DNA from: Gemmatimonadota bacterium
GTDB taxonomy: Bacteria; Gemmatimonadota; Gemmatimonadetes; Longimicrobiales; Longimicrobiaceae
Length of the DNA: 24,911 bases
Direction of reading: 5' to 3'
Assembly (NCBI GenBank): GCA_019348475.1
Contig: JAHWJJ010000005.1
Span: forward strand, 1-24,911
Shown: positions 3,599-19,147 of the stretch, one piece after another
Position numbering within the stretch: position 1 is the first letter of the stretch
Layout of the letters: each line of letters begins with the position of its first letter
Notes under the pieces: model-generated
Databases searched by the model: none
What the model was told of the DNA's origin: nothing
The model's input: only the letters and a program-made list of their open reading frames with translations
Program-made: the position numbers and the translations under genes

Positions 3599-4478
3599 TC
3601 AGTGGTCCAGCGGACTGCGTACGCCGCGGCCGCCGCGGTTCAGCACGTGGGTGTAGATCATCGTGGTGCGCACGTCCGCGTGGCCGAGCAGTTCCTGCAC
3701 GGTGCGGATGTCATACCCGTCTTCGAGCAGGTGCGTGGCGAACGAGTGGCGGAGCGTGTGGCACCCGGCGGGCTTCACGATAACCGCCCGGCGGACGGCG
3801 CTCCCCACCGCCTTCTGGATGGATGACTCGGAGAGGTGGTGGCGGCCCCGGCGGCCCGAGCGGGGATTTGTGGACAGGCGGCCCGAGGGAAAGACGTACT
3901 GCCATGCCCACTCCCGCTCAGCCCCGGACTTCTTCCGGTCGAGCGCATGCGGAAGCGCGACGGCTCCGAACCCCGCAGCCAGGTCGCGTCGGTGCAGCGC
4001 GCGGCCCTTCTCCAGGTGCGCCATCAGCGGCTCGCGCAGCCGTTCAGGGAAGCATCGTGGTGCGGTCCTTGTCACCCTTACCCTGCCGCACCACCACGGC
4101 GCGCCGGTCGAAGTCGATGTGTTTTACTCGCAGCCGCAGCGCCTCCAGCAGTCTGAGGCCGCCGCCGTAGAGCAGGCCGGCCACCAGCGCGTGGACTCCG
4201 GTTAGTTGCGCCATCACCATCCGCACTTCGTCGCGAGTGAGGACCGTCGGCACGCGTCGCGACCACCGGGCGCGGACCGCCTCCTCGATGCGCGGAAGCT
4301 CGATCTCCAGCACGTCGCGGTACAGAAACAGGCGTCCGGAGAGCGCCTGGTTCTGCGTGGACGCGGCCACGTTCCGCTCAACGGCGAGCCACGTGAGGAA
4401 CGCCTGGATCTCACGCGCACCCATGTCGCGAGGGTGCCGCTTGCCGTGATGCACTATGGCCACGTGGGAGCCGCACAT
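3599..4478 (-). pseudogene. intI: Integron integrase, frameshifted and N-terminally truncated
   Basis: This is a tyrosine recombinase of the integron class, the enzyme that inserts and excises cassettes at attI and attC. It is in two frames. The first (4478 to 4044) has [16 protein letters not shown], box I with [13 protein letters not shown] (catalytic Arg) and the GKGDKDR lysine region. The second (to 3599) has the IntI-specific insert with the [11 protein letters not shown] and DPRSG-like [13 protein letters not shown] region, box [30 protein letters not shown] (His and nucleophile Tyr) and the GVRSPLDH end. Dropping one base (A at 4046) joins them as [10 protein letters not shown], matching the family, so this is a single +1 insertion. 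The start is also damaged: the roughly 45 N-terminal residues normally ahead of HGKRHP are not found in frame, only degenerate sequence at 4479-4585. The gene points away from the array, as usual for integrons. It is probably inactive unless the frameshift is an assembly error. Confidence 0.9.
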
Positions 4479-4697
4479 TGGTTCCCGGTAACACGCGGAA
4501 CAAGAGCGCTATCCCGCCACCGTGCGTACATATCCGCTCAACATCCCGCGGCAGATGACGCATCGGGTTACGTGCGCGCGATTTAGTGCCGCTTGACGAT
4601 TGCGTGGCCGAGTATTATCTGGATCTGAGCGGATTCGGCCTAAACCCTCCGGCCGTGGTGTTGGCCGGACTTCCGTCCACTGAACAACCAGTTAGGC
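4479..4697 (+). other. Candidate attI region with first GTTAGGC core
   Basis: This stretch lies between the integrase remnant and the first cassette gene, where attI and Pc normally sit. A GTTAGGC core is at 4691-4697, and a GCCTAAA lies 60 bases upstream at 4638-4644. Between them is a small hairpin (CCGGCC/GGCCGG, 8-base loop). It could be attI or a short first attC. No direct repeats typical of class 1 attI were seen. The upstream part holds only degenerate integrase sequence. Confidence 0.45.
4593..4618 (+). promoter_or_regulatory. Weak candidate Pc-like promoter
   Basis: TTGACG (4593-4598) and TATTAT (4613-4618) face the cassette array, but the 14-base spacer is shorter than the usual 16-18. 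The position would suit a cassette promoter; activity is uncertain. Confidence 0.3.
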
Positions 4698-4722
4698 CGC
4701 TGGATAAGCATCGCAGGGGCAC

Positions 4723-5715
4723 ATGGTGGGCATCTTCACAGAGCAGTCCGAACTCCTGTCTCAGCAAGCCAACGTGCGAGAAACCGACGGCAACCCCACA
4801 GCGAACTCTCTTCCAGAAGGCATCTCGGAGAGTGCTTTGAAGGAAGGCATTGCCCGCTCGGGCTATCCGGTCCAAGGACTGGTGGCAGCCGAGCTCCTCA
4901 AACACTGTCATGTTTCTGAGGAATGGGGATTTCGTGACCAGCAGACGGGAGATCATCGATCTCTCGATGTCCGTGCGTCATTCTTCACGCAGCCGCCGGA
5001 GGGCCGACAGATCCAGCAGCTCCTGTACCTCCTAATTGAATGTAAGCGCTCGACGAAGCCGTTTATCTTTTTCAAGACAGTGACTGATCGCCAACTGCCG
5101 GGCATCCAGATCAGCGGGATCGGCGGGCGTCTTGAGCTCAAGGATGAACGTGGGCGGACGCGAATTGAGACCCCCGTTGCTGAGATGCTTGGTCTTGAGG
5201 ACCTCGAGTGGTTTTCCACAGCGACTCCCGTAGTAACGTCGTTCGCGGTGGCTCATCCGAAGGGAAAGAGTCCAGTGGAGTTATCCGGTACTGAGGCGTA
5301 CAACGGTGCAGTTCTTCCACTGTGCAAAGCGTTGGACTTTGCCCGGTCTCGCGCACCCGATGGAGACCGTAAAAGCTTTATCTATCCCACAGTTCATATA
5401 CCGGTGCTTGTCTTAGACGCGCCCATGCTTTTGGTTGAGGACCCGTCGCATGCGGATGATCCGTTGCTCGTGCCAAGGCTCAGGATATTGAGGCATGAGG
5501 CCTCCGCCGAGAACAAGGCGTGGGCACGTGACAGGATATATCAGATCGAGGTGGTACACCTCGCCCACCTTGACCGATTTATCGAGGAAGTCACCTCGCT
5601 CAAAGATCGGCTATGGGCAGCCGTGTTGGAGAAGGAGCCGATCTTGCGGTCTGGTGGCGGGATCGTGCCAGACTTGGCTAACTGGTCCGCTTCTGATGTG
5701 CGCCCACTGTCGTAA
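4723..5715 (+). CDS. Cassette gene: hypothetical protein with PD-(D/E)XK-like motif
   Basis: This 330-aa protein is the first cassette gene after the integrase. No named family is certain. Residues about 55-115 look like a restriction-endonuclease-like core: E57 in a helix, D82 in RSLDVRAS, then a hydrophobic strand ending in IECKRS (E106, K108) followed by TKPFIFF, so the D...ExK spacing fits a PD-(D/E)XK nuclease fold. The rest (residues 120-330) has no motif I recognise. It has no signal peptide or membrane helix and is probably cytosolic. Codon use is clearly less GC-rich than sdhAB, as expected for a captured cassette. The ATG at 4723 lies 26 bases after the GTTAGGC core, and a full attC follows 94 bases after the stop. 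DNA cleavage or defence is a hypothesis resting on three residues. Confidence 0.7.
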   Translation: MVGIFTEQSELLSQQANVRETDGNPTANSLPEGISESALKEGIARSGYPVQGLVAAELLKHCHVSEEWGFRDQQTGDHRSLDVRASFFTQPPEGRQIQQLLYLLIECKRSTKPFIFFKTVTDRQLPGIQISGIGGRLELKDERGRTRIETPVAEMLGLEDLEWFSTATPVVTSFAVAHPKGKSPVELSGTEAYNGAVLPLCKALDFARSRAPDGDRKSFIYPTVHIPVLVLDAPMLLVEDPSHADDPLLVPRLRILRHEASAENKAWARDRIYQIEVVHLAHLDRFIEEVTSLKDRLWAAVLEKEPILRSGGGIVPDLANWSASDVRPLS

Positions 5716-5808
5716 AGCCGCAGCCGCCTTCCGTCCATCGCTGGGGAGCGGACACGTCAACCATAGCTGACTCAGGTCGCTGAAGGACGACACACGAACG
5801 TAGTAGCG

Positions 5809-5907
5809 GCCTAACAATCGGCTGCAGGGGATGCGGGGCCGTCCACGATTTCGCCGGTTGAAAGATTGTGCGCCGGCCCCGCACCCCTGACCCGTGGGGC
5901 GTTAGAA
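5809..5907 (+). repeat. attC site, family 1, complete
   Basis: R'' GCCTAAC is at 5809-5815 and R' GTTAGAA at 5901-5907. CAGGGG(A)TGCGGGGCCG at 5825-5841 pairs with CGGCCCCGCACCCCTG at 5874-5889: 16 bp with a single unpaired A at 5831, the extrahelical base typical of attC. The apical TTTCGCCGG...GAAA part can fold on itself. This is the model copy for the family. Confidence 0.92.
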
Positions 5908-5932
5908 TGCACACCAGAATACGCGCAACCGG

Positions 5933-6865
5933 ATGACGGATTCTCCTGAGCCGACAGTACCGCCGACGGCAGTTTCAACTCAGGGACCCTCCACGGTTCC
6001 TGGCAGCCCGGTGTTTGACTACCGCGGCTTGACGCGCATGTCGCCTATCGCGTCGTGTGTTCTGTCAATACAGGATCTCCAGCGACTCTATCGAGAACTC
6101 GATGCCAAGGCACAGCAGGCGATGGAGAAGCACCTCGCGGCTCTGAAGCGGGCCCCGGATACAAGTGAGGAGGAGTGGGATGCTCTCTTGGCCGAGGGGC
6201 GCCGCGTAGGACACGTAACCGTCTCCGTCCTCGGTAGTCGTGGTGAGCAGATCATGGCAAGCTCGATCGAGGCTTTAGATCCCACGGGTCTCCCCGCCCA
6301 GATCCAACAAATTACGTTCGACAGCGCGGCAGGACCGAAGCAGGCGTACAATATCTTCATGATGAACCGGTTCGTTGTGGAACTCGACTTCACCGAACCG
6401 CCCGGGTTCAACAGTTACAACCCGTGGGATCAGCCAACACCGAATGCGAGCCGAGTTGAGGTGATTGGAGCCGATGATACATGGGTGCTTGGAGTGTACG
6501 AGTCTATTCTTGGGTTCTTCACGCACCGTCAGAAAAAGCGAACATGGCTACACTCGTCAGAGGCGTTTAACCTGCTGAACTGGTTCGTAGGCTTCCCAGT
6601 CGCCCTCTGGACGATTTTCCGGGTTGATAGCGCCGCCGACTTTCTCCAAGGTGCACATCCGGCCTTAAAAGGTGCGTTTTACGTATACCTGTTCTTGGTG
6701 GTACTACTGTTGTTTCGTGCTGTCATTTGGGCGGCCCGATGGCTCTTTCCGATGGTGGAGTTGGAAGAAGCGCGGAGTACCCGAGCGCGAGCCGTGTTTT
6801 GGGTTGTCGTCGGCGGCTTGATTACCGGCCTTCTGTACGATGTACTGAAAACAGTCCTGACCTGA
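5933..6865 (+). CDS. Cassette gene: hypothetical membrane protein
   Basis: This 310-aa protein is not recognised. The N-terminal 25 residues are Pro/Thr/Ser rich. Residues about 45-200 look like a soluble domain with a helical stretch (SIQDLQRLYRELDAKAQQ) and a segment of alternating hydrophobicity. Three hydrophobic segments follow near residues 213-232, 243-266 and 285-305, so a soluble N-domain is tied to the membrane by a C-terminal three-helix region. It has moderate GC, unlike the flanking chromosome. It starts 25 bases after the preceding attC core, and its stop lies 34 bases before the next attC. No ribosome site is evident, which is common for cassette genes. A role in sensing or defence is conceivable, but nothing in the sequence shows it. 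Confidence 0.75.
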   Translation: MTDSPEPTVPPTAVSTQGPSTVPGSPVFDYRGLTRMSPIASCVLSIQDLQRLYRELDAKAQQAMEKHLAALKRAPDTSEEEWDALLAEGRRVGHVTVSVLGSRGEQIMASSIEALDPTGLPAQIQQITFDSAAGPKQAYNIFMMNRFVVELDFTEPPGFNSYNPWDQPTPNASRVEVIGADDTWVLGVYESILGFFTHRQKKRTWLHSSEAFNLLNWFVGFPVALWTIFRVDSAADFLQGAHPALKGAFYVYLFLVVLLLFRAVIWAARWLFPMVELEEARSTRARAVFWVVVGGLITGLLYDVLKTVLT

Positions 6866-6898
6866 CTGGCATCTCGACCTCGCTGCGGCGCTCGCGCG

Positions 6899-6999
6899 TT
6901 CTAACAATCGGCTGCAGGGGATGCAGGGCCTTGCATGCTTGCGGGCGAGGCGAAGTCTTGCGCGCCGGCCCCGCACCCCTGACCCTTGTGTCGTTAGGC
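6899..6999 (+). repeat. attC site, family 1, complete
   Basis: R'' is TTCTAAC (first base off consensus) and R' is GTTAGGC at 6993-6999. The conserved stem AGGGG(A)TGC...GCACCCCTGACCC is present. The left arm reads GCAGGGCC against GGCCCCGC, so it has one extra mismatch relative to the family. Confidence 0.88.
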
Positions 7000-7068
7000 G
7001 CCTCCGGACCAAGCTCTGGCGCGGCGCGCACACCACGTCTCATCTATTCACCAGAACCCCGAGCCACA

Positions 7069-7320
7069 GTGTCCGATGAAGATAGGAAGTACTACCTGCC
7101 TCCAGAGTTCGGAACAGAGGTGTACCGGACGGAGAAGGACCTCGTGGCAATCCGCCAAGAGGACCTGCTCGGCAACGACGACGCAGTCGTGCTTATCTCG
7201 CCAGAGCGCGTCGACCGCCTGATCCTGATGCTCCGCGCAGTGAAGGACGAGATCCTGACGGATCGTGCGGATGCCGCTGAGGCACGCTCTACCGAACATC
7301 CCCCCGTCTCGAATGGGTAA
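7069..7320 (+). CDS. Cassette gene: small hypothetical protein (83 aa)
   Basis: The GTG start at 7069 (MSDEDRKYYLPPEFG...) is chosen because it is the first plausible start after the attC core at 6993-6999; the longer open frame would read through the attC. The product is a small, acidic, probably cytosolic protein with no Cys and no membrane segment. A central VVLISPERVDRLILMLRAVKDEIL part should form a strand followed by a helix. No family is recognised. The next attC starts 50 bases after the stop. Such short cassette ORFs are common, and coding status is supported by the intact frame filling the space between two attC sites. Confidence 0.65.
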   Translation: MSDEDRKYYLPPEFGTEVYRTEKDLVAIRQEDLLGNDDAVVLISPERVDRLILMLRAVKDEILTDRADAAEARSTEHPPVSNG

Positions 7321-7369
7321 CTTGTTCGAGGCGCGAACGAAGCGCCGCGCGACGGTCGCGCTGGCTGGC

Positions 7370-7412
7370 GCCTAACAATCGGCTGCAGGGGATGCGGGTC
7401 CGTCCATGCTTG
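7370..7412 (+). repeat. attC family 1, left half only
   Basis: R'' GCCTAAC (7370-7376) and CAATCGGCTGCAGGGG(A)TGCGGG follow the family to about 7412. The right arm and R' are missing. What follows is unrelated, very GC-rich sequence leading to the serine hydrolase gene, so a deletion or insertion broke this site. Confidence 0.8.
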
Positions 7413-7737
7413 TTGGTGAGGGCGGGGTGAGTTTGGTCCGGCGGCCCCGGCGCCGGTAGGGTAGACCGGTCGCCGACCCCTACCCCCCTGCGCATGACCG
7501 CCGCCAGTACGACCGGGGGCCCGGCCCTTCGGCGCCCGCCACGAGGTCGCGCCGGAAGCGGTCCCACTCGGAGACCCGGAGCCCGTTCTCCCGCGGGGGC
7601 AGGGGGGGACAGCGGCACCGCGACCACGGCGAGGACCGCGACCCGAGGGCGAGCCAACGTTGAAACTTGCGTCCCGGGCGTCCGTAGGTGGCGAGCGCTC
7701 CTTCGCGCTCCACCTTCCCCCGGCCCCGACCCGCGCG
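7413..7737. other. Non-coding high-GC stretch before the hydrolase
   Basis: No supported gene lies here. Open frames exist on both strands, but they are GC-driven and show no family features. It begins at the broken attC and ends at the hydrolase start, so it was probably brought in with that gene. Confidence 0.4.
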
Positions 7738-9099
7738 ATGCCCATGCAGCCCCGATTTCGCCCCACTGTCCTCGCCCTCGCGCTGACCACCCTCGCGGCC
7801 GCGGACGCCGCCGCGCAGACCGGCCGGACGCTCGCGCAGCGCCTCGACTCCCTCGCCGGCGCCGGCGTGCTCGAGAATCGCGCCGTCGGCACCGTCGCCG
7901 CCGTCGTGAAGGGGACCGACACCCTGCTCTTCAACGGCTACGGCAGGGCGAACGTCGAATGGGACGTGCCGATGCCGGCCGACGCGATGTTCGAGATCGG
8001 CTCCGTCACCAAGCAGTTCACCGCCGCGGCGATCCTGCAGCTGCGCGACGAGGGGAAGCTGAGCCTGGACGACGAGATCACGAAGTGGCTCCCCGACTTC
8101 GACACGCGCGGCAACAAGGTCACCGTGCGGCAGCTGCTAGACCACACCTCGGGGATGGTGGGGCTCACCGAGATGCCGGAGTTCGACCTGCTCGTCTGGA
8201 ACCAACGCTTCCCGCGCGACTCGGCCTACGCGCTCATCAAGCGCTACCCCTTCCAGTTCCCCACGGGGACGGCGCAGATGTACAACAACTCCGCCTTCTG
8301 GCTCGCGGGGCTGATCGTCGAGAAGGCGAGCGGGATGACGTACGAGGACTACGTCGAGCAGCGGATCTTCGCGCCGCTCGGGATGACGCGCAGCATGTAC
8401 TGCGACAGCGGCGAGCACGTGCCGCGGCGCGCGAACGGCTACCGCGTGCGGGACGGGGTGATCCGCCGCGCGCCGACCAACGTGCACACGTGGCCCTTCG
8501 CCGCGGGGTCGATCTGCTCGACGGCGGGCGACCTCGTGACGTGGGTCACGGCGCTGCACGGGGGCAAGGTGCTCTCGCCCAGGTCGTACCGGGAGATGAC
8601 CACGCCGTCGACGCTGGCCGACGGGACCCCGCTGCGGTACGGGCTCGGCATCGGCGTCGGCAAGGACTCGCGCGGGCTCACCTACATCGGCCACGGCGGC
8701 TCGATCAGCGGGTTCACCGCGGAGGCGGGGTGGTACCCCGACGCGCAGCTGGCGGTGGTGGTCCTGGTGAACAGCAACGGCAACGTCGACCCGGGGGACG
8801 TCGGCGGTGAACTGGCCGCGGAGCTGCTGCCGTGGCAGCGCCCGACCGTCGCGCCGTTCACCGGCGACGCGGCGCCGCTGGTCGGCACGTACAGGGGACC
8901 CGGACGCGGTCGCGACATCGTGGTCCAGGTGACGCAGGCGCCGCAGGGCATCGCCGTCTCGATCAACGGCGGCTCGCCCCGCCCCGCCCCGTGGGTCGAG
9001 GGGATGACGTTCCGCGTGGGCAGCACCTTCCTGACCTTCCGCGGCGGCGACCTGCACCTCTCGGGCGGCTCGGCGTACTCGGTGCTGAAGAGGCAGTAG
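7738..9099 (+). CDS. Exported serine hydrolase, beta-lactamase/PBP-like family
   Basis: This 453-aa exported protein has a signal peptide (residues 1-27, cut near AAAQ-TG). The penicilloyl-serine transferase signatures are all present: SVTK at 89-92 (nucleophile Ser and Lys), YNN at 182-184 and HGG at 319-321 in place of KTG, which is usual for the Beta-lactamase (PF00144)/class-C-like esterase group. Residues about 375-453 form a small all-beta C-terminal domain like those in DUF3471-type relatives. Substrate could be an ester, a D-amino-acid peptide or a beta-lactam; antibiotic resistance should not be assumed. ATG 7738 gives a proper signal peptide; 7744 is an alternative. Its very high GC contrasts with the neighbouring cassettes. 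The gene follows a broken attC and precedes a different attC type, so it may be a late insert or a chromosomal gene picked up as a cassette. Confidence 0.9.
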   Translation: MPMQPRFRPTVLALALTTLAAADAAAQTGRTLAQRLDSLAGAGVLENRAVGTVAAVVKGTDTLLFNGYGRANVEWDVPMPADAMFEIGSVTKQFTAAAILQLRDEGKLSLDDEITKWLPDFDTRGNKVTVRQLLDHTSGMVGLTEMPEFDLLVWNQRFPRDSAYALIKRYPFQFPTGTAQMYNNSAFWLAGLIVEKASGMTYEDYVEQRIFAPLGMTRSMYCDSGEHVPRRANGYRVRDGVIRRAPTNVHTWPFAAGSICSTAGDLVTWVTALHGGKVLSPRSYREMTTPSTLADGTPLRYGLGIGVGKDSRGLTYIGHGGSISGFTAEAGWYPDAQLAVVVLVNSNGNVDPGDVGGELAAELLPWQRPTVAPFTGDAAPLVGTYRGPGRGRDIVVQVTQAPQGIAVSINGGSPRPAPWVEGMTFRVGSTFLTFRGGDLHLSGGSAYSVLKRQ

Positions 9100-9202
9100 A
9101 AGGGCACTGCCTGATGCGAAGGCGCTGTCTTAAGGACGTCCCAGAGCCGGGGGGCTAGTCTTACTTCTTCGGGCCAACCGGGAAAAGTGGTAGCCTCCCG
9201 TG

Positions 9203-9299
9203 ACCTGACGAATCGTTGCAGCTGACGAACGCGCGCAGCGCCCGGACCACATCCAGAGCTCCAGCTCCGCGCGTTCGCAGCTGAACTCTGGCGTTACCC
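9203..9299 (+). repeat. attC-like site, divergent type
   Basis: CAGCTG(A)CGAACGCGCG at 9219-9235 pairs with CGCGCGTTCGCAGCTG at 9268-9283: 16 bp with one unpaired A at 9225, the attC pattern with a sequence unrelated to family 1. ACCTGAC at 9203 and GTTACCC at 9293-9299 would be R'' and R', but they are poorly complementary, so it may be degenerate. Confidence 0.6.
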
Positions 9300-9312
9300 C
9301 GCTGGGCAACCA

Positions 9313-9348
9313 TCGCGGTAGCCGCAGGCTTGCCCGCGGCTGCCGCGA
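9313..9348. other. Strong hairpin between two attC remnants
   Basis: TCGCGGTAGCCGCAGG and CCCGCGGCTGCCGCGA pair over 16 positions, with G-T pairs at two of them and a four-base loop. No T-tract follows. It may be a terminator for the hydrolase or part of a further recombination site. Confidence 0.4.
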
Positions 9349-9473
9349 CCCTTCACGCAATCGGTCCCCCACCCCCGCTCGCGTCCCGTACCAGCTTGCC
9401 TGTCAACAGGTGTCGTACCACGTACCGGAGAGGCTGTGGACTTCAAGGCAGCGACCGATGTTCTCACCTCTTG

Positions 9474-9547
9474 GGGGGGCCGTTAATGCTTTTTGCCGCG
9501 ACAGGCTTGCGCGCCGGCCCCGCACCGCTGACCCTGTGTCGTTCGGC
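9474..9547 (+). repeat. attC family 1, right half
   Basis: GACAGGCTTGCGCGCCGG and CCCCGCACC...GACCCTGTGTC lead to R' GTTCGGC at 9541-9547. The left arm is reduced to GGGGGGCCGTTAATGC, so R'' and the AGGGG(A)TGC half are lost. Confidence 0.8.
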
Positions 9548-9638
9548 GCGGGGATCGGCGACCTGCGGCCGCCCCGGGATATACTCGCGTTCAGCGACCT
9601 GCGTGCGACAAACGGGCACACCCTGTCTCGAGAGCTTG

Positions 9639-10586
9639 ATGACCGCACCCGAAGATGCACTCGTGGCGCTGCCTGATCCGGCGGACCGGACGCATCCTCC
9701 CATGCCGCTCGTTTCCATCGTCATCCCGTGCTACGTCACAACGCCGAAGCACGCGGAACTGCTCGACGAGACGCTGCACACGGTCGGTGCACAGACGTGC
9801 CGCGACTTCGAGATCGTCGTCGTGGACGACGGATCGCCCCTCGACGTCGGCGCCATCACCGCCCGGCACGCCGGCACGGTCACGCTGCGGCAGGCCAACG
9901 GCGGATCGGCCGTCGCTCGCAACACCGGCATCCGTGCGAGCCGCGGCCGGTACTTCGTCTTTCTCGATGCCGACGACCACCTGCTGCCACACGCCGTGGA
10001 GGCGGGGCTCCGTGCCTTCGCCGAGCATCCCGAGTGCGGATTCGTCATCGGACGGCGTGAGGAGATGACGTACGAGGGAACTCCCGTCCCGTGGAGCGTG
10101 GCCAGCCTGCCGCGCGAAACCTGGCTGTACAACACCCTGCTCGGCTTCGACTGGTACATCATCCCGCCGTCATCGGCGATGTTCCGGCGTGAGGCCGTGG
10201 AGGCGGTGGGCGGCTTCCGCGATCCCTGGGGCGCGGACGACCTCGACTTCTACCTGCGGGTGGCGCGCGAGTACCCAGCCTGGTGTTACGAGGAGCCCGC
10301 AGTGACGCGCTACCGCCGCTACAGCGCCAGCTCGTCGCGCGACGGGGAGCGCATGCTGCGTAGCATTCGTGCCGTCTACGACCGTCAGTGGCCGCTGGTG
10401 CAGGGGGACCCGGCGGCGGAAGCGGCCTTCCAGCGCGGGCTGGCGCTGCTGACGAAGATCTTCGTCGACTGCCTGGCGGAGAACTTCAGCGACAGCGTGC
10501 GAGCGAGGAATTGGCGCCGGGTACTGCGGACCGGATTCTTGTTCGCGGGTGAAAAGGGTCGTGCTGCCCTGGGGCTACGCTCGTGA
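9639..10586 (+). CDS. Cassette gene: family 2 glycosyltransferase
   Basis: This 315-aa GT-A-fold inverting glycosyltransferase transfers a sugar from a nucleotide-sugar donor, probably for surface polysaccharide or glycan decoration at the cytoplasmic face. Seen: PLVSIVIPCY at the start of the fold, VVDDGS (61-66), NGGSAVARNTG (87-97), the DxD-type FLDADD (108-113) that binds metal and nucleotide, and a GADDLDFYLR acceptor/catalytic segment (198-207). There is no membrane helix. The upstream frame is open through the attC half site, so the start at 9639 (MTAPEDALVA) is chosen as the first ATG after that site. It is the only glycosyl enzyme here, so acceptor and donor are unknown. A degraded DUF3500 remnant and an attC half site follow it. 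Confidence 0.9.
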   Translation: MTAPEDALVALPDPADRTHPPMPLVSIVIPCYVTTPKHAELLDETLHTVGAQTCRDFEIVVVDDGSPLDVGAITARHAGTVTLRQANGGSAVARNTGIRASRGRYFVFLDADDHLLPHAVEAGLRAFAEHPECGFVIGRREEMTYEGTPVPWSVASLPRETWLYNTLLGFDWYIIPPSSAMFRREAVEAVGGFRDPWGADDLDFYLRVAREYPAWCYEEPAVTRYRRYSASSSRDGERMLRSIRAVYDRQWPLVQGDPAAEAAFQRGLALLTKIFVDCLAENFSDSVRARNWRRVLRTGFLFAGEKGRAALGLRS

Positions 10587-10621
10587 TGCGCCGATCGATA
10601 CTCCCTTTTCCGTTTAGTTCC

Positions 10622-10735
10622 ATGGCGAACCCTCGCACGTACACCCGGTTCAGATCGGCAGGCCTGTTCCCCATGGATGCCGGGCAACGTGCAGCAGCGT
10701 TCGAGTTGCTGGGTATCGGTCTGAGTGAGCGCGGC
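10622..10735 (+). pseudogene. Deletion relic of a DUF3500 lipoprotein gene
   Basis: The frame starts with MAN-RTYTRFRSAGLFP, identical but for one residue to the start of the intact gene at 13270. It then jumps in frame to MDA-QRAAAFELLG-GLSERG, which corresponds to 13546-13605 of the intact copy. The lipobox cysteine and most of the domain are gone and the frame runs on into the attC half site. It is a remnant of a second cassette of the same gene after at least two deletions. Confidence 0.88.
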
Positions 10736-10778
10736 TTGCGCTCTCTGCCCTCCGCGCCTGAGCTTGGAGGCGTTAGGC
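10736..10778 (+). repeat. attC family 2, right half
   Basis: TTGCGCTCTCTGCCCTCC, CGCGCCTGAGCTTGGAGG and R' GTTAGGC (10772-10778). The left half was lost together with the end of the DUF3500 relic. Confidence 0.75.
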
Positions 10779-10812: not shown

Positions 10813-11301
10813 ATGCCCGATACACCGGTGGCGGTTTCCCGCGCGCGCGGCGAGTGGGTTTCTGATGCTCTGTCCCGAGTACGAGTGCGGCACTTCGACC
10901 CCTTGATCGTTGACGAGCCCGCCGCGGAGGGTGGGGGCGATACCGGCCCCCGACCGACTGAGTATCTCATGGTCGCCTATGCGGGTTGCACTGCCGTCAT
11001 TGCCGAGCGGGTCGCGCGGGAGATGGCGTTCTCGTACGATGCACTTCAGACCGACCTCCGCGGCGCGCTGGACCCGCGGGGCATCGAGGGCCAACCTGAA
11101 CACGACCCGCACATCCACACGGTGACGGGATGGGTGCGGGTCACGACCAGGGAGCCTGATGAGCGGTTGCAACGCTTGGCTGGGGAGGTGGAGCGCCGCT
11201 GTCCGCTCTACCAGATGCTGGTTCGCTCCGGCACGCGGGTGGAGGTGAATTGGCGGCGGGTGGAGGCGGAGCCTACCGGATCCCCGCCCACGACGGATTG
11301 A
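10813..11301 (+). CDS. Cassette gene: OsmC/Ohr-family protein
   Basis: This 162-aa protein belongs to the OsmC/Ohr family of thiol-dependent peroxidases that reduce organic hydroperoxides in the cytosol. The two reactive cysteines are in their usual settings: Cys59 in PTEYLMVAYAGCTAV and Cys130 in ERRCPLYQML. A GGAG lies about 11 bases before the ATG at 10813. The protein is slightly longer than a typical OsmC because of a Gly/Pro-rich loop at 36-48. The gene starts 34 bases after an attC core (GTTAGGC), so it is a cassette gene. Whether it is Ohr, OsmC or a YhfA-like paralogue is not resolved by sequence. Confidence 0.88.
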   Translation: MPDTPVAVSRARGEWVSDALSRVRVRHFDPLIVDEPAAEGGGDTGPRPTEYLMVAYAGCTAVIAERVAREMAFSYDALQTDLRGALDPRGIEGQPEHDPHIHTVTGWVRVTTREPDERLQRLAGEVERRCPLYQMLVRSGTRVEVNWRRVEAEPTGSPPTTD

Positions 11302-11486: not shown

Positions 11487-11672
11487 GCCTAACGAGAGCG
11501 CTGCAGGCGACAGTTGGCCGGGCATCCTTTGGCCGCAGAGCCGAGCGGTGGGGGCGGCACCTGCTCGCGCTGCTGCCCCTTGGGCTGCAGGGAATGCGGG
11601 GCCGGCCATGCTTTCGGCTGGACGACAGTCTTGCGCGCCGGCCCCGCACCCCTGGCCCTTGTGTCGTTCGGC
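11487..11672 (+). repeat. Hybrid attC: family 2 left part fused to family 1
   Basis: R'' GCCTAAC (11487-11493) and the next roughly 85 bases match family 2 (GAGAGCGCTGCAGGCGACAG, then the internal part as in 13130-13190). From about 11582 the sequence is a family 1 site (GGCTGCAGGGAATGCGGGGC ... GCCCCGCACCCCT) ending in R' GTTCGGC at 11666-11672. The site is 186 bases, about twice a family 1 site. Confidence 0.82.
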
Positions 11673-11698
11673 GGCTCACACACTCAACTATAGGCACC

Positions 11699-12491: not shown

Positions 12492-12738
12492 GTAGGCGTG
12501 AATTGAATGCGGCCGAGACGGGGTGGTTCGGAGTCTCCCCTCCAGGCAGGGGGCACATTCAAGGCAGCCGTATCGCCAGGCGAGCACTCCTGTTCTCCGC
12601 ATGCTCTGCCCTGTCGTGAAAGACTGAGTCACGCCACAGCCGCACGAGCGGTTCCTGTTTCACGCGGTCTTTGCGGCTGGCGTTCGCGCAGGCTCTACGA
12701 GTGGAGCCTGCATGGTTTCCTCGGAATCGGAGAAGATC

Positions 12739-12963
12739 ATGAGCAAGCTGCTGCGTACCACCCGGTTCATCTTCGCCCTCGCCGTCACTCTCGGACTCGG
12801 CTTCGGTGCCACAACGGCTTTCGCGGGCACCGCAGCCTCAGACTGCTCCGTCGCACCTTCCATCGGCGCCTGCACCTCCAAGGAGGACTGCCAAACCAAG
12901 TGCGAGGCGGCAGGCGGGTCGCAAGGCGACTGCTGGGACGGCTGCTGTCTCTGCGCCTTCTGA
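12739..12963 (+). CDS. Cassette gene: secreted cysteine-rich peptide (74 aa)
   Basis: This is a small precursor with a clear Sec signal peptide (residues 1-30, ending TTAFAG). The mature part of about 44 residues has eight cysteines (C36, C45, C51, C55, C65, C69, C70, C72). The even number and the C-x3-C and CC-x-C spacing suggest a disulfide-stapled fold like defensin- or knottin-type peptides, but no family is recognised. ATG 12739 is preferred over the upstream in-frame 12712 because it gives a compact signal peptide and has GGAG about 7 bases ahead. The cassette carries its own promoter (12462-12491) between complete flanking attC sites. Possible roles are antimicrobial or inhibitor peptide, or a small periplasmic binding protein; all are inference. 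Confidence 0.78.
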   Translation: MSKLLRTTRFIFALAVTLGLGFGATTAFAGTAASDCSVAPSIGACTSKEDCQTKCEAAGGSQGDCWDGCCLCAF

Positions 12964-13105: not shown

Positions 13106-13110
13106 CAGCC

Positions 13111-13246
13111 GCCTGACGAGAGCGCTGCCGGCGACAGTTGGCCCGCATCCTTTTCGGTGCGGAGCTGAGCAGCGGGGGCAAGCTCCTCGCGCGTTGCGAA
13201 CACTTGCGCTCTCTGCCAGCTGTGCGTGAGCTTGAGGGCGTTGGAG
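13111..13246 (+). repeat. attC site, family 2
   Basis: R'' GCCTGAC (13111-13117), GAGAGCGCTGCCGGCGACAG, the long internal part and the CACTTGCGCTCTCTGCC end are shared with other family 2 sites; R' is GTTGGAG (13240-13246). It is about 136 bases. Confidence 0.75.
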
Positions 13247-13269
13247 CGCTTCCCTCCCAGTCGAGTTCC

Positions 13270-14358
13270 ATGGCGAATTCTCGCACTTACACCCGGTTCA
13301 GATCGGCAGGCCTGTTCCCCGCCGTCCTCACCGTGGCGCTTCTTGGCTGCGGTGCCCAAACGCCAGCGCCTGCGGGGGGAGCATCCGTCGCTGACACATC
13401 TGCATTGGCCGGGTCCGCACGGACGTTCCTCTCGACGCTGAACGCTACGCAGCGTGCCGCCGCCTCGTTTCCCTTCGACCATCCGGAGCGCACCCGGTGG
13501 GCGTACGTGCCGCAGAGGCGCACTGGCATCCCATTGCAGGCGATGGATGCCGCGCAGCGTGCAGCAGCGTTCGAGTTGCTGGGCACCGGTCTGAGTGAGC
13601 GCGGCACCGGGCTCGTGCGTGGCATCATCGAACTCGAAGGCACTCTCCGCGAGCTGGAAGGAGGGGCGGCCAGTCCCAGGGGGCTCCAGCGCGATCCGGA
13701 GCTCTACTACCTGGCACTCTTCACCGGGCCGGGTGGTACGCACCCCTGGGGCTGGCGCTTCGAGGGCCATCACCTCTCGGTGAATGTCACGGATCTCGGG
13801 CCACACGGGCAGATCGTCGCACCGCTCTTCATGGGTGCCAACCCGGCGCGCGTCCCCAGCGGCCCCCGCGAAGGGACTCGGCTGCTCGCCGCGGAAGAGG
13901 ACCTCGCCTTCGAGCTGCTACACATGCTCGATCCTGCCCAACGCGCCCGCGCCACCATCGCCGCGCAGACGTTCGGGGACATTCTTACCCGCAGCGCTAC
14001 CGTGGTGGGACCGATGGAATTCGCCGGCCTGCCCGCGGCCGAGATGACGATTGCCCAGCAACGGCAGCTGCGCCGGCTGCTGGAATTGTACGCCGGACGG
14101 ATGGCAGATTCCTCGGCATCCAGGCAGTTGCAGCGTATCGAACAGGCCGGGTTTGAGCGCCTGCACTTCGCCTGGGCCGGTGCGCACCAGCCCCGCGAGC
14201 CGCACTACTACCGCATCCACGGACCGACCGTGCTGGTGGAGTACGACAACACACAGAGCAGCGCGAACCACGTCCACACCGTCTGGCGCGATCTAGAAAA
14301 CGATTTCGGAGGTGACCTACTGAGGAGGCACTACTCACGGCAGCCTCACCGTTACTGA
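13270..14358 (+). CDS. Cassette gene: DUF3500 lipoprotein
   Basis: This 362-aa protein matches what I know of the DUF3500 family, exported proteins of unknown activity. It has a lipoprotein signal with LLGC at 24-27 (Cys27 lipidated), so it is probably membrane-anchored outside the cytoplasm. Features seen: FPFDHPERTRWAYVP near 65-79, DAAQRAAAFELLGTGLSERG, a GWRFEGHHLSVN segment with paired His, LLAAEEDLAFELL, and a C-terminal HYYRIHGPTVLVEYDN region. The His-rich motifs hint at metal binding but no reaction is known. The frame is open further upstream through the attC, so the start at 13270 is chosen as the first ATG after it and is shared with the deletion relic at 10622. A complete attC follows 20 bases after the stop. 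Confidence 0.88.
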   Translation: MANSRTYTRFRSAGLFPAVLTVALLGCGAQTPAPAGGASVADTSALAGSARTFLSTLNATQRAAASFPFDHPERTRWAYVPQRRTGIPLQAMDAAQRAAAFELLGTGLSERGTGLVRGIIELEGTLRELEGGAASPRGLQRDPELYYLALFTGPGGTHPWGWRFEGHHLSVNVTDLGPHGQIVAPLFMGANPARVPSGPREGTRLLAAEEDLAFELLHMLDPAQRARATIAAQTFGDILTRSATVVGPMEFAGLPAAEMTIAQQRQLRRLLELYAGRMADSSASRQLQRIEQAGFERLHFAWAGAHQPREPHYYRIHGPTVLVEYDNTQSSANHVHTVWRDLENDFGGDLLRRHYSRQPHRY

Positions 14359-14378
14359 ACCGGGATTCGCACCACAGC

Positions 14379-14478
14379 GCCCAACAATCGGCTGCAGGGG
14401 ATGCGGCGCCGGGCCATGCTTTCGCCGCCGACAGGCTTGCGCGCCGGCCCCGCACCCCTGACCCTTGTGTCGTTAGGC
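14379..14478 (+). repeat. attC site, family 1, complete
   Basis: R'' GCCCAAC (14379-14385), R' GTTAGGC (14472-14478), stem AGGGG(A)TGCGGCGCCG against CGGCCCCGCACCCCT with one internal mismatch. The apical part is TTTCGCCGCCGACAGGCTTGC. Confidence 0.9.
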
Positions 14479-14531
14479 ACCTCAATTTTGTGAGTTCATG
14501 ATGCTTCTCAAGAGTCTCATCTGTTGGGCAG

Positions 14532-14723: not shown

Positions 14724-14760
14724 GACTGCTGGATCCAGCACAGAAACGACGCCCGGTCTC

Positions 14761-14850
14761 CGCTGCAGGGGATGCGGGGCCGTGCATGCTTTCAGCTGGA
14801 CAACAGGCTTGTGCGCCGGCCCCGCACCCCAGACCCTTGTGTCGTTCGGC
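14761..14850 (+). repeat. attC family 1 lacking R''
   Basis: The stem CGCTGCAGGGG(A)TGCGGGGCC / GGCCCCGCACCCC is intact and R' is GTTCGGC (14844-14850), but the CCTAACAATCG start is replaced by unrelated bases (CGCCCGGTCTC). Confidence 0.85.
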
Positions 14851-14880
14851 GGCACGCCCACCCGTCGCTTGGAGGAAGTG

Positions 14881-15489
14881 ATGCTTGCTTGGGCGCATCA
14901 GTGGTTGATCCGGGAGTGGCACTGGCCGCCGGCGGCGCTATTCACAGCCATTTTGCTCTTCCTCCTGTTACCGGTGGTAGCGGCGACTGAAGGGCTCGTC
15001 GTTACATTGGTGTTCCTCCAGCTTCCACTCTACCTCGTTCACCAGTTCGAGGAGCACCAGGGCGACCGCTTCCGCCGCTACTTCAACGATCGACTGATCG
15101 GCATCCCCGACGGCCTCGCACCGGAGGCCACGTTCTGGATCAACGCATTGGGTGTCTGGGGGGTGATCCTGGCAGCCCTGTATCTGGCCGTCTACGCGAC
15201 CCCCGCCTGGGGGCTGATCGCTGTCTATCTGAGCGTGCTCAACGGAGTGCTCCATGTTGCCCACGGGCTGACTCGGCGGGGGTACAATCCCGGACTCTGG
15301 ACCAGCCTGGCTCTCTTGCTCCCCCTCGGTGGGTGGAGTCTCGCCCAGGTTTCCCGCGAAATCGGCGCCCCCTGGCATGTCCATGTGCTGAGCGCGGGCT
15401 TCGTCGCAGCCGCACATCTCGGCGTAGTCGCGTACGTACGTCTACGGCTCGCCCAGGCATCTCGTGCGCAGCCGAACGCAGCTGCCTGA
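14881..15489 (+). CDS. Cassette gene: HXXEE-motif membrane protein
   Basis: This 202-aa integral membrane protein has the HXXEE signature (H54-Q-F-E57-E58-H) at the end of a helix, then N121, H125 and H128 in NGVLHVAHGL and YNPG at 135-138, as in the HXXEE-domain family whose biochemical role is unknown. About six hydrophobic segments are visible (near 18-33, 36-53, 86-104, 106-124, 139-153, 165-187). The conserved polar residues in membrane helices suggest a metal site or an intramembrane enzyme; this is inference. The ATG at 14881 has a clear GGAGG six bases upstream, unlike most cassette genes here. Its attC lies 64 bases after the stop but lacks R'. Confidence 0.85.
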   Translation: MLAWAHQWLIREWHWPPAALFTAILLFLLLPVVAATEGLVVTLVFLQLPLYLVHQFEEHQGDRFRRYFNDRLIGIPDGLAPEATFWINALGVWGVILAALYLAVYATPAWGLIAVYLSVLNGVLHVAHGLTRRGYNPGLWTSLALLLPLGGWSLAQVSREIGAPWHVHVLSAGFVAAAHLGVVAYVRLRLAQASRAQPNAAA

Positions 15490-15552: not shown

Positions 15553-15635
15553 ACGGACAATCGGCTGCAGGGGATGCGGGGCCGTCCATGCTTTCGCCGG
15601 CGAAAGCGCTTGCGCGCCGGCCCCGCACCCCTGAC
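15553..15635 (+). repeat. attC family 1 lacking R'
   Basis: The left core is changed to ACGGACAATCGG. The stem is perfect (CAGGGG(A)TGCGGGGCCG against CGGCCCCGCACCCCTG) with a TTTCGCCGGCGAAAG tip hairpin, but the CCCTTGTGTCGTTAGGC end is absent after CCCCTGAC. Confidence 0.85.
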
Positions 15636-15692
15636 GGAGCACTGACAGCAGCAGACCATGCTCAGTGCCCGCCACCGTTCACCCGGGGGCCA

Positions 15693-16331
15693 ATGATCCG
15701 AAGTCTCATCTACGACACGCTCATCCTCAGACTCACCTCCCGCTGGTACGCCGAGGTGCTCCAGCGTGTGCCGGAGGGCGCCGCGCTGCTGGACGTCGGC
15801 ATAGGCACGGCCGGAGCCCTGCTGGCGAACGCCGCCCTGGTGAAGCGAAAGGGCCTGCGCGTCACCGGCATCGACATCGACGCCGACTATGTGGAGCACG
15901 CCCGGCGAAGACTCCGGGATTCCCCGCTGCGGGATCGTGTCGAGGTACGTCTCGAATCCGTCTACGATCACCACGGCGGGCCGTACGACGCCGTGTATTT
16001 CTCCGGAAGCTTCATGCTCCTGCCCCAGCCCGAGCGGGCGTTGCGGCATTGCGGCGAGCTGTTGATCCCGGACGGACGCGTCTTTTTCACACAGACCATC
16101 CAGATGCGACGCGCCCGCTGGGTGGAACTCATCAAGCCCATGCTGAAGCAGGCAACGAGCATCGATTTCGGCCGCGTGACCTACCAGGACGAGTTCAAGG
16201 CGCAGATCCGCGCCGCCGGCCTGGAGCTGGAGGAACTCACCACCCTGGCGCGCCACGGGAGCCGGGCTTCGTGCATTGCCGTGGCAAGGCCTGCCGACAC
16301 GCGTCGAGAGCAGGAGCAGCCGCATCCCTAG
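15693..16331 (+). CDS. Cassette gene: class I SAM-dependent methyltransferase
   Basis: This 212-aa protein has a Rossmann-like methyltransferase fold. Motif I is LLDVGIGTA (32-40), the acidic ribose-binding strand end is VTGIDID (57-63), then RVEVRLESVYD and the motif IV-like YDAVYFSGSFMLL, with a helical cap after residue 140 (MRRARWVELIKPMLKQA). The substrate cannot be deduced; the short form resembles small-molecule or lipid-type methyltransferases. No membrane segment is present. The frame is open upstream, but the ATG at 15693 is the first after the attC remnant and starts the fold properly. The following attC keeps only its right half, directly after the stop. Confidence 0.85.
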   Translation: MIRSLIYDTLILRLTSRWYAEVLQRVPEGAALLDVGIGTAGALLANAALVKRKGLRVTGIDIDADYVEHARRRLRDSPLRDRVEVRLESVYDHHGGPYDAVYFSGSFMLLPQPERALRHCGELLIPDGRVFFTQTIQMRRARWVELIKPMLKQATSIDFGRVTYQDEFKAQIRAAGLELEELTTLARHGSRASCIAVARPADTRREQEQPHP

Positions 16332-16377
16332 CACTTGCGCTCCACGCCCTCCGCGCCTGAGCTTGGGGGCGTTCGGC
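16332..16377 (+). repeat. attC family 2, right half
   Basis: CACTTGCGCTCCACGCCC, TCCGCGCCTGAGCTTGGG and R' GTTCGGC (16371-16377). The left half is absent; the stop of the methyltransferase gene abuts the remnant. Confidence 0.75.
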
Positions 16378-16435: not shown

Positions 16436-17326
16436 ATGAATCCAGCTTCCCCGGGTATGGAGAACGATCCCCAGCGGGAGAAGCTGGACAGCCGCGGATC
16501 AGCCCCGGAGCGCTCCGGAGAGCCCAGCGCGCGGGACCACCCCCAGGAGGTCCCGCTCAAGGCGTACGAGACGATTCTCGCGCAACAGGTCGCGCAGGCC
16601 GAGAAGGAGATGGAGCGGCCCGCGCGCGAACTGCTGATCTCCGGCTTCGCCGCCGGCATCGAGATCGGCTTCGGCCCCTTTCTGATGGCGCTGATCCTGA
16701 CCAGCACGCGCGGGATCTATGCGGATCCCACCGTCGAACTGCTGCAAGCGGTCGCGTACTCCGTCGGGTTCATCATCGTAATCCTCGGCCGTTCGGAGCT
16801 GTTCACCGAGCACACCGCGCTGGCCATCCAGCCGGTGCTCGCCGGCCGGGCTCCCGTGGCGGGACTCCTTCGGCTCTGGGCCCTGGTCTACGTCTCCAAC
16901 ATCTCGGGCGCCGCGGCATTCGCGGCGTTTGCCGCGTGGATCGGCCCCGAGCTCGGCGAGGCGCAGAGCTGGGCCTTCGTGGAGATCGCCAGCAAGTACG
17001 TGGACCACCCGTGGTGGCTCTTGCTGATCGGCGGAATCCTGGCGGGATGGCTGATGGGTCTGCTTGCGTGGCTGGTCACGGCCGCGCGAGACACCATCGG
17101 CCAGATCGTCCTGATCGGGCTGGTCACCGTTGGAATCGCACTCGCGCACCTGCAGCACTCCATCGCCGGCACCGTGGAGGTTCTGGCGGGCGTACTCTCT
17201 GGCGATCAGGTCACATGGGCGGAGTTCGGCCAGTTCCTGCTCTGGTCCACGGTCGGGAACGCGGTCGGCGGAGTGGTTTTCGTCGCGCTCCTGAAGTACG
17301 GCCACGTACGCCGCGGTGGGGAGTAA
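16436..17326 (+). CDS. Formate/nitrite transporter family protein
   Basis: This 296-aa inner membrane channel is of the formate/nitrite (FNT, YfdC-like) type. A polar, charged N-terminal tail of about 60 residues precedes the channel. The core then has about six helices with family features: ELLISGFAAGIEIGFGPFLMA, the NISGAAAFAAFAAW re-entrant type segment, GGILAGWLMGLLAWLV and HLQHSIAGTVEVL with the central His. The likely cargo is a small monovalent anion or weak acid, not further defined. ATG 16436 is the first start; 16457 is an alternative, and neither has a good ribosome site. It is the largest distal cassette and follows an attC half site by 58 bases. No intact attC follows it, so it can no longer be excised as a unit. 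Confidence 0.88.
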   Translation: MNPASPGMENDPQREKLDSRGSAPERSGEPSARDHPQEVPLKAYETILAQQVAQAEKEMERPARELLISGFAAGIEIGFGPFLMALILTSTRGIYADPTVELLQAVAYSVGFIIVILGRSELFTEHTALAIQPVLAGRAPVAGLLRLWALVYVSNISGAAAFAAFAAWIGPELGEAQSWAFVEIASKYVDHPWWLLLIGGILAGWLMGLLAWLVTAARDTIGQIVLIGLVTVGIALAHLQHSIAGTVEVLAGVLSGDQVTWAEFGQFLLWSTVGNAVGGVVFVALLKYGHVRRGGE

Positions 17327-17561: not shown

Positions 17562-17609
17562 TGGTCCATGTTTTCGCCGCCGACAGGCTTGCGCCGGCCC
17601 CGCACCCCT
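17562..17609 (+). repeat. attC family 1 core remnant
   Basis: TGGTCCATGTTTTCGCCG, CCGACAGGCTTGCGCCGG and CCCCGCACCCCTA match the centre and right arm of family 1; both outer cores are lost. Confidence 0.75.
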
Positions 17610-17843
17610 ATCAATAGCACGGTCCAGCAATGGACAACCGGGTATACGCATATGGGCATCTATTATATCGGCGGCCGGCCGTACCTGACCATGTACAGGG
17701 GGAGCAGCGGGTATATCATTGCGTGTTCGATTGCTGATAATTTGTATGTCGATCAGTTCTGGAATGACCATTGGACAGAAGATTACACGTCGTTCACGCT
17801 GGTTCAAAGAGAACGATCTGGTGATGTTAACGCAGCACCGTAA
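17610..17843 (+). CDS. Fragment of a secreted repeat protein (lectin- or propeller-like)
   Basis: The open frame, rich in Trp/Tyr/Gly and clearly lower in GC than everything nearby, reads WTTGYTHMGIYYIGGRPYLT, MYRGSSGYIIACSI, then DQFWNDHWTEDYTSFTLVQ. The W..G.T......G.PYL..Y....G.....I pattern resembles the short beta-repeats of some secreted bacterial proteins, but one and a half repeats are too little to name a family. There is no natural start: the frame runs in from the attC core remnant, and the first internal ATG is at 17652. It is best seen as a gene fragment left by deletion, possibly still translated. Confidence 0.45.
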   Translation: MNSTVQQWTTGYTHMGIYYIGGRPYLTMYRGSSGYIIACSIADNLYVDQFWNDHWTEDYTSFTLVQRERSGDVNAAP

Positions 17844-17880
17844 GAGGTCCACATTACGGTGTCCGGTAGCTTTCCCTGCC

Positions 17881-18070
17881 GATGGCGTGCGTCTCCGTGC
17901 ACGGCGACAATCCCCCGGCATCAACTCGCTGCTGGACCTGTTGGTGTTCGGGCGGCGCGGGGGAGCGCCAGAGCGGAGTTCTGCCCGACCGCCGACCTGC
18001 CGTCCATGCCCGCGAACCCTACGGCGTTCGCGGAGGAGCGAGCCGGCTGCGAACGATCGCGAAGAAGTGA
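17881..18070 (+). pseudogene. sdhA relic
   Basis: The DNA aligns with sdhA nt 520-735: TGGCGTGCGT.TC.GTGCACGGCG, then ATCAACTCGCTGCTGGACCT and GTTCGGGCGGCGCGGGGG, then ACGGCGTTCGCGGAGGAG and GCGAGCCGGC.GCGAA. Several small indels break the frame and one deletion of about 35 bases is present. A weaker match may extend back to about 17858. It is on the plus strand, the same orientation as sdhA. Confidence 0.85.
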
Positions 18071-18237
18071 GCCCATCCGCCACGCGGCGACGTCCGGCGC
18101 GAGGTCGGCCACTGCAATCGAGGGCGCGTCCCCATGAGGCGGAGGTTCTGGACCGGCCCACCAGGGTCGTCCTCTTTGGGCCGGGAGGAGGATTCCTTTC
18201 TGCGTGTGGAGCGACTCCGGGAGTCACGTGGTCGGCG

Positions 18238-18376
18238 CGCCAACAAATGCGCTGCAGGGGACAGATCTCCCAACATCCTGCTGCCGCAGACCTGACTGCG
18301 GCGGGGGGCCCGCTGCTGCCCCGCTGCGGTCCTCTTGCCTTTATGCCCGCCGCGCCTGAGTTTGGGGGCGTTAGGC
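18238..18376 (+). repeat. attC site, family 2, complete
   Basis: R'' CGCCAAC (18238-18244), then AAATGCGCTGCAGGGGACAG, a GC-rich middle with internal pairing, CGCGCCTGAGTTTGGGGG and R' GTTAGGC (18370-18376). It is about 139 bases. Confidence 0.8.
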
Positions 18377-18412
18377 TGCTCTCGCCTGGTACTCCGGGGC
18401 TCATTCCACCGT

Positions 18413-19012
18413 ATGCAAATGCTCAGGACTCTTCTCCTGCTCCTTCTCCTCTGCACTGGTTCTGTCATATCGCTCCATGCACAGGAGGCGGTCGCCTCGC
18501 AGGACACCGATCAGCTGCGGATCTCTGGTTCGTTCCACTGGTTCGGCCTGCTCGCTGCACGCGGACAGCAGGAAGGCGGCCAACCAGAGGGCTTGCTCTT
18601 CGGCTGTTCCGGGCAGCTCGATCTTCTACCGCGCAGAGATTTACACCCGGCACTGACTGCCAGCCGGCTGAATTACACTCTGCTTGGGACCAGCGGTAGC
18701 TTCTGGACTGTGGATGCGGGCCTGCTGAAGCGCCTTCCGATGGATCCGTACAACGTCCTGGCTTCGGGTCGGGTCTGGTTGGAGAACTACGTGGGAGGAG
18801 CTATCGGTCTCGCGGTCGGGTATCCGCACCCTGGGGACGTCCGACCGACAGCGGCAGTACGCGTCGTCTCCGACGTGCTCGTCCAGCTTCCGGCGGGGCT
18901 GAGGAGCCAGATCCAGATCTTCACGATCATAGGGCAACCGAACGCCCTTGCGTTGTCACTGGCGCTCGGGCCGCGAGTTTCGATCTCTGGATCGGCTACT
19001 CCAACTCCGTAG
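18413..19012 (+). CDS. Cassette gene: exported protein of unknown function
   Basis: This 199-aa protein has a strong signal peptide (MQMLRTLLLLLLLCTGSVISLHAQE, cut near residue 24). The mature part has alternating hydrophobic stretches and Gly-rich turns (ENYVGGAIGLAVGYPHPGDV, RPTAAVRVVSDVLVQL, NALALSLALGPRVSI) that would suit beta-strands, so an envelope or outer-membrane-associated protein is possible. ATG 18413 is chosen; 18419 is an in-frame alternative. It starts 37 bases after a complete attC and is the last recognisable cassette. Only the left half of an attC remains behind it (19026). The family is not recognised. Confidence 0.7.
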   Translation: MQMLRTLLLLLLLCTGSVISLHAQEAVASQDTDQLRISGSFHWFGLLAARGQQEGGQPEGLLFGCSGQLDLLPRRDLHPALTASRLNYTLLGTSGSFWTVDAGLLKRLPMDPYNVLASGRVWLENYVGGAIGLAVGYPHPGDVRPTAAVRVVSDVLVQLPAGLRSQIQIFTIIGQPNALALSLALGPRVSISGSATPTP

Positions 19013-19025
19013 CCTGCATGTCCAG

Positions 19026-19055
19026 GCCCCTCACGAGAGCGCTGCAAGCGACGGT
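19026..19055 (+). repeat. attC family 2, left half: distal end of the array
   Basis: CCCCTCACGAGAGCGCTGCA followed by AGCGACGGTT matches the left part of family 2. No right half follows. This is the last integron trace before the chromosome. Confidence 0.65.
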
Positions 19056-19147
19056 TACCAAGTAGTCATTGCCCTGCACGCGCGCTTTGTGCGATCATCT
19101 TGATGCCGTTCAGCATGTGTCCGGCAGCCGCAGCCGGACGGAATTCG

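Follow-up and report, generated by a model that had tools for sequence, protein, structure and literature searches.

A probable degraded chromosomal integron behind sdhB in a Longimicrobiaceae bacterium

Integrons are bacterial gene-collecting platforms, best known from the Gammaproteobacteria. We analysed a stretch of 24,911 bases (hereafter the window), which is the whole of contig C97. The draft genome to which it belongs comprises 504 contigs totalling 4.08 Mb and has a completeness of 76.55%. The contig opens within sdhA and continues with sdhB, behind which lie a broken integron integrase gene (intI) on the minus strand, an attI-like region and a plus-strand array of gene cassettes and attC sites (Table 1). 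The window SdhB is 80-85% identical to the SdhB of nine same-genus genomes, and we infer the host to be a member of the Longimicrobiaceae, Gemmatimonadota; the phylum guessed in an earlier note on this DNA therefore stands, as does the sdhAB context that it described. The start in sdhAB fits the chromosomal location of a sedentary integron, in a genome that is a draft and not closed. No tRNA genes were found in the window. Below, G001-G021 denote genomes of the family, L-numbers fetched loci and C-numbers contigs.

The integrase pseudogene

The integrase gene is split between two open reading frames (ORFs). ORF 4044-4478(-) matches TIGR02249 (integron integrase) with an E-value of 5.1e-52 over profile positions 30-166 of 315, and ORF 3599-4075(-) with an E-value of 4e-67 over positions 165-313 of 315; neither half attains the curated cut-off of this profile, 265 bits. 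The XerC and XerD profiles match too, far more weakly than TIGR02249. The C-terminal half could be aligned to the solved integrase 2A3V across the catalytic block and the IntI-type insert, which is a mark of IntI integrases. In a tree of 38 rows, including two Xer-like rows (L023, L220, L226, L232, L236, L238 and L240, which lack the search motif, and L021, excluded by hand, are absent from it), both halves fell within the IntI clade, the IntI rows being separated from the two Xer-like rows with support 100/100. Both belong to a six-row set (90/99) with three Longimicrobiaceae IntIs and one cyanobacterial IntI; they separate from each other, the N-terminal half grouping with the Kovacikia IntI (95/87) and the C-terminal half with that of G010 (92/73).

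The gene carries two lesions. Its start is gone, with about 29 N-terminal positions absent relative to TIGR02249. The window retains 20 and 25 bases in the place of the 145 and 169 bases of two G015 loci. This deletion was recovered again in a DNA alignment, together with a frameshift near 4050, which cuts what remains into the two ORFs. Sequence comparison thus establishes both the identity of the integrase and its two lesions, and the window integrase, judged from its reading frame, is dead, i.e. a pseudogene. The earlier note had proposed a minus-strand IntI-type integrase, which the TIGR02249 matches, the 2A3V alignment and the tree confirm; the finding that it named as a refutation, a grouping with XerC or phage recombinases lacking the IntI insert, was not seen, since the insert aligns to 2A3V and the halves lie in the IntI clade. 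What it missed is the damage, as it had presented the integrase without any.

The attI-like region, the attC sites and the cassettes

The region adjoining intI has homologous stretches at two G015 loci, on contig C354 of the same genome, on contig C83 of G003 and on contig C85 of G001, and shorter ones at two G008 loci and in G007. This homology and the GTTAGGC core make it a putative attI.

The attC sites were sought with two covariance models. The first (R1), built from 20 sites, includes five window sites, so that its scores in the window are circular; it gave eight plus-strand matches there. The second (R2), made against this circularity from 19 sites that all come from other genomes, gave 21 window matches at E-values up to 1. 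Six are strong plus-strand sites (at 6896, 5806, 14376, 11569, 14749 and 15553; 70-103 bits, E 6e-27 to 1.2e-17) and three are weak ones (at 7367, 12336 and 9476; 26-35 bits, E 1.2e-7 to 3.2e-5). There are five further plus-strand matches with E-values of 0.1 to 0.75, and seven on the minus strand with E-values of at least 0.0022; six of these minus-strand matches overlap the strong sites, which are near-palindromes. The strong and weak plus-strand sites thus form a one-directional array leading away from intI. Rfam, at its gathering score, gave no match in the window.

Fourteen GTTNGGC cores (N not T) are present on the plus strand, nine at expected junctions (4691 in the attI-like region, 6993, 9541, 10772, 11666, 14472, 14844, 16371 and 18370) and five elsewhere. 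Strict R boxes flank only one of the six strong sites on both sides. In the structure that we assigned to the aligned attC sites, the left arm contains an unpaired A, and 91.4% of the cells of the first alignment are paired, versus 36-54% with one side slid. Of seven sites folded singly, three of type A gave z-scores of -1.9 to -3.2, and the hairpin at 9198-9298 gave -4.1.

Table 1. Features of the window
Feature	Positions	Strand	Evidence
Full sdhB, left border gene	1111..1935	+	ORF; SdhB comparison
RelA/SpoT-domain gene between full sdhB and displaced 3' end	2021..3169	+	PF04607, E 2.6e-17
Displaced sdhB 3' end with terminator	3250..3503	+	86.3% over 255 bases
Broken intI, ORFs 3599-4075 and 4044-4478	3599..4478	-	Profile, solved structure, tree, DNA alignment
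attI-like region, core GTTAGGC at 4691	4479..4714	+	Homology with other integron loci
Cassette ORF, 330 aa, no family	4723..5715	+	Profile searches
attC type A, right box eroded	5806..5910	+	99.8 bits
Cassette ORF, 310 aa, no family above cut-off	5933..6865	+	Profile searches
attC type A, left box eroded	6896..7002	+	103.1 bits
Short cassette ORF	7069..7320	+	ORF listing
Weak attC, left part only	7367..7469	+	34.5 bits
Serine hydrolase ORF, beta-lactamase family (PF00144)	7660..9099	+	Pfam, E 3.7e-74
Hairpin, possible attC of another type	9198..9298	+	z -4.14; E 0.1 with type A model
Glycosyltransferase family 2 ORF; real start downstream of the listed one	9330..10586	+	Pfam, E 6.9e-25
Type A attC, right part	9476..9547	+	25.9 bits for 9476-9521; core at 9541
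Piece of a shrunken DUF3500 cassette; right half of an attC (core 10772)	10601..10778	+	Repeats D7, D11, D12
OsmC-like cassette ORF	10813..11301	+	Pfam, E 1.8e-15
Hybrid: type B left part, then type A attC 11569-11675	11487..11675	+	Repeats; 94.8 bits
Small secreted-looking cysteine-rich ORF	12712..12963	+	Pfam matches below cut-off only
DUF3500 cassette ORF	13138..14358	+	Pfam, E 3e-88
attC type A, both strict R boxes intact	14376..14481	+	96.9 bits
attC type A, left box gone	14749..14853	+	88.1 bits
HXXEE-family cassette ORF	14881..15489	+	Pfam, E 5.4e-15
attC type A, both boxes eroded	15553..15649	+	70.1 bits
Methyltransferase cassette ORF	15693..16331	+	Pfam, E 2.7e-13
attC right half, core at 16371	16334..16377	+	Repeat D7
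Formate/nitrite transporter cassette ORF	16436..17326	+	Pfam, E 2e-53
sdhA remnant within array	17883..18039	+	82.5% over 160 bases
Candidate type B site, core at 18370	18233..18378	+	Repeats and core; folds like shuffles
Final array ORF, no family	18335..19012	+	Profile searches
Short sdhB remnant, far end	19146..19196	+	80.8% over 52 bases

Set against these results, the earlier note's account of the array holds in most of its anatomy. The attC sites for which it proposed a covariance check were recovered by the window-free model, the bulged A is present, and most cassette genes are indeed without a telling family. Its figure of about 14 cassettes agrees with the 13 to 15 or so gene-bearing segments, the attC model backing six to nine sites. 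What it overlooked is that partial, half and hybrid forms make up many of the sites, and that sdhB 3' ends turn up again both within the array and next to it. The half sites, the hybrid site and the shrunken DUF3500 piece, which stand beside the worn boxes as signs of decay, point to erosion of the array. The right-flank genes (19149-20351 and 21600-23000) had no match at an E-value of 1e-20 in 11 relatives, which leaves the island without a fixed right-hand limit.

Integron remains and sdhB 3' ends in related genomes

Among 99 near relatives, 13 have an IntI above the cut-off; in a sample of 395 genomes from the phylum, 138 do. The earlier note had called integrons in such a lineage much less described, which these counts do not support; Gemmatimonadota are also counted among the integron phyla in the available part of a review (PMC8618304). 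Within the family, G010 and G018 have intact IntIs, and none of the 10 same-genus genomes has an IntI above the cut-off. IntI remnants with differing breaks were found in G001, G003 and G007 of the genus, and two in G015, which belongs to another genus; these weak remnants were sought in fetched loci only, which makes their count a lower bound. Type A attC sites, surveyed under stricter filters with 64 candidates scored per genome, occur in 16 of 21 family genomes, among them nine of the 10 in the genus, and in none of 40 other genomes of the order. The attC sites are thus alike within the taxon, though other site types are mixed in. Comparison of sequences likewise establishes the family-wide attC type, the attI homology and the remnants in relatives. 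By contrast, the chromosomal place is not kept genus-wide: among the 10 sdhB loci of the genus that were fetched, at unequal lengths, just two, those of the window and of G009, have attC sites next to sdhB. According to the available part of PMC9024848, draft genomes inflate the number of integrase-less attC clusters. G009, an assembly of 60 contigs that is 98% complete, has no IntI at an E-value of 1e-30 yet still carries attC sites in several locations.

Other integron remains recur, in two genera, near one conserved gene (L191 13834-15001 and its matches), whose translation suggests a trehalose-synthase type: an IntI remnant in G003 and in G015, and attC sites in G009, are close to it. In the window's own genome, contig C170 carries it along with an attC site, and in G001 it is about 48 kb from attC sites on its contig. 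Of the 21 family genomes, 19 match its DNA strongly, G004 does so only in part and G020 not at all. Contig C354 of the window's own genome (L193 3474-4891) has an attI-like region and two attC sites, and the integrase profile found nothing on it. On contig C83 of G003 (L180 3066-3985), an attI-like region is followed by attC sites with no adjoining integrase match. As a check for insertion into genomic sites other than attI and attC, empty sites were sought for two lone attC sites of G003 (C83 and C149), out of many scattered ones; their flanks are themselves variable, and no clean pair emerged. Some cassette-borne DNA is common to species at different loci (e.g. G006 and G007 have a stretch of 1,516 bases in common at 96.8%). 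A stretch of an attC-bearing locus with a beta-lactamase-family-like ORF, named by eye, is 82-95% shared among loci of G001, G003, G008 and G009 that differ in their flanks (L153 12126-13707, L188, L191, L195). A DNA search also brought up, as a by-product, a repeat of about 50 bases that has many copies in genomes of the genus (L181 1070-1118, and in G002, G008 and others).

Displaced sdhB 3' ends lie 3' of the full gene in five of 10 same-genus genomes: the window, G009 (three of them), G002, G001 and G007 (46 identical bases). The search found none in the same-genus genomes G003, G004, G006 and G008 or, outside the genus, in G010, G013 and G021; in G002, G004 and G010 it covered only 1.5-2.7 kb. 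G005 has just a 43-base sdhA piece. Such repeats bound short accessory genes in the window (1741-3503, 17883-18039 and 19146-19196) and at L144, L145, L147 and L152. The G007 insert, bounded by the 46-bp perfect repeat, encodes AbiU (8.9e-130; AIPR in Pfam), and G006 resembles the empty site for this insertion. The G001 cargo has HEPN/DUF4145 matches below the cut-off only, and the best PADLOC family for the RelA/SpoT-domain gene of the window (2021..3169) is no better than E 0.006. The ORFs listed for the inserted units, not every one of which was run against profiles, showed no recombinase. A search of viral contigs for sdhB 3' ends gave no match, a weak negative that relates to one exact pattern. 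The 5' limits of the sdhB copies vary, from 40 to 260 bases before the end of sdhB, so that site-specific and homologous recombination are indistinguishable.

From this pattern, the 3' end of sdhB would be an insertion hotspot, and the array would belong to an island located there. A bolder proposal, which we regard as rather unlikely, is that a recombination system acting at the sdhB 3' end of the genus inserts short integrase-less units, each regenerating sdhB (AbiU in G007, the weakly HEPN/DUF4145-like gene in G001, the RelA/SpoT-domain gene in the window, three consecutive units in G009), that the integron arrived at sdhB as such cargo, and that separate attI platforms of the same genomes were served by a shared integrase in trans. 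Single accessory genes, a known defence gene among them, would have in the hotspot a route of their own.

A dead integron and its parallels

The broken intI, together with the finding that one of the six strong attC sites has both strict R boxes, indicates a degraded integron. Very probably, the window thus carries the degraded chromosomal integron of a Longimicrobiaceae bacterium, located in an accessory island behind sdhB. We infer past activity and an order of events as follows. While IntI was intact, circular cassettes would have entered at attI (core 4691), with IntI recombining folded single-stranded attC sites, and these insertions would have built the plus-strand array. Later, the integrase would have been lost through the N-terminal deletion and the frameshift, and the attC sites and some cassettes would have eroded.

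Several observations weigh against this account. Covariation in the attC alignment is weak (65 of 500 shuffles equal its pairing and 24 of 500 its covariation score), so that conserved complementarity, more than covariation, supports the attC structure. The type B candidates at 13108 and 18233 and the site at 13006 fold like shuffles (z -0.6 to +0.8). Relatives carry attC right boxes such as GTTCGGC, and some departures from the strict box may therefore not be decay. Finally, a draft genome (76.55%, 504 contigs) may omit an intact integrase elsewhere, and the frameshift could be a base error in the assembly.

This last point, the draft metagenome assembly, would, along with the intact IntIs of G010 and G018, suit a working integron whose intI only seems broken because of assembly errors. 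We consider this improbable: an N-terminal deletion of more than 100 bases is no base-call error, the attC sites are worn as well, and broken copies occur in genus relatives too. The idea that the loss of intI was an accident confined to contig C97 was rejected, as the other remnants in relatives have other breaks. A mobile integron, residing on a plasmid or transposon and not on the chromosome, would account for the rarity of the sdhB place in the genus, but it is most improbable given that the contig starts in an sdhAB 80-85% identical to the genus copies, that the attC type is family-wide and that Pfam scans of the main ORFs revealed no transposase or plasmid genes (no search was aimed at them). 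As for there being no integron at all, i.e. an Xer- or phage-type recombinase beside unrelated repeats, the XerC and XerD matches speak for it; it is contradicted by TIGR02249, the 2A3V alignment, the tree and the window-free attC model, and we give it virtually no credence. The window thus holds a real but dead integron, which is a new example of a known integron kind.

With an IntI in 138 of 395 genomes, the Gemmatimonadota could become a second natural system for the study of integron evolution. The genus shows a late stage, in which the attC type is present in nine of 10 genomes and an IntI above the cut-off in none, and invites the question whether selection or chance preserves cassettes once their integrase is gone.

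Gemmatirosa kalamazoonesis, which we take to be a member of the Gemmatimonadota, can be compared by description, not by sequence. The integron of its strain KBS708 differs from that of the window in lying on a 1.1-Mb replicon, as stated in the available part of PMC9024848. The same part of that source sets the threshold for a sedentary chromosomal integron at >10 attC sites, against which the window has six strong and three weak sites by the model and further half sites by repeat. It also describes CALINs, attC clusters without integrase, as proposed degraded integrons (PMC9024848). The window resembles a CALIN, as so described, in that the integrase is lost or dead and the array remains, and differs from it in keeping a recognizable integrase pseudogene and an attI-like region, whereas a CALIN has no integrase whatever.

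The closest precedent, again compared by description and not by sequence, would be the chromosomal integron of Xanthomonas. There, according to the available part of PMC12444791, intI lies behind ilvD, most integrases are inactivated by frameshifts, stops or deletions, and about half of the genomes have attC clusters elsewhere. The window differs in its phylum, in an sdhB place that is not kept across the genus and in its attC sites, which are of a Longimicrobiaceae type. In anatomy and fate the parallel nevertheless appears close, as far as that part of the source goes: an intI adjoining a housekeeping gene, an inactivated integrase and attC clusters elsewhere in the genome.

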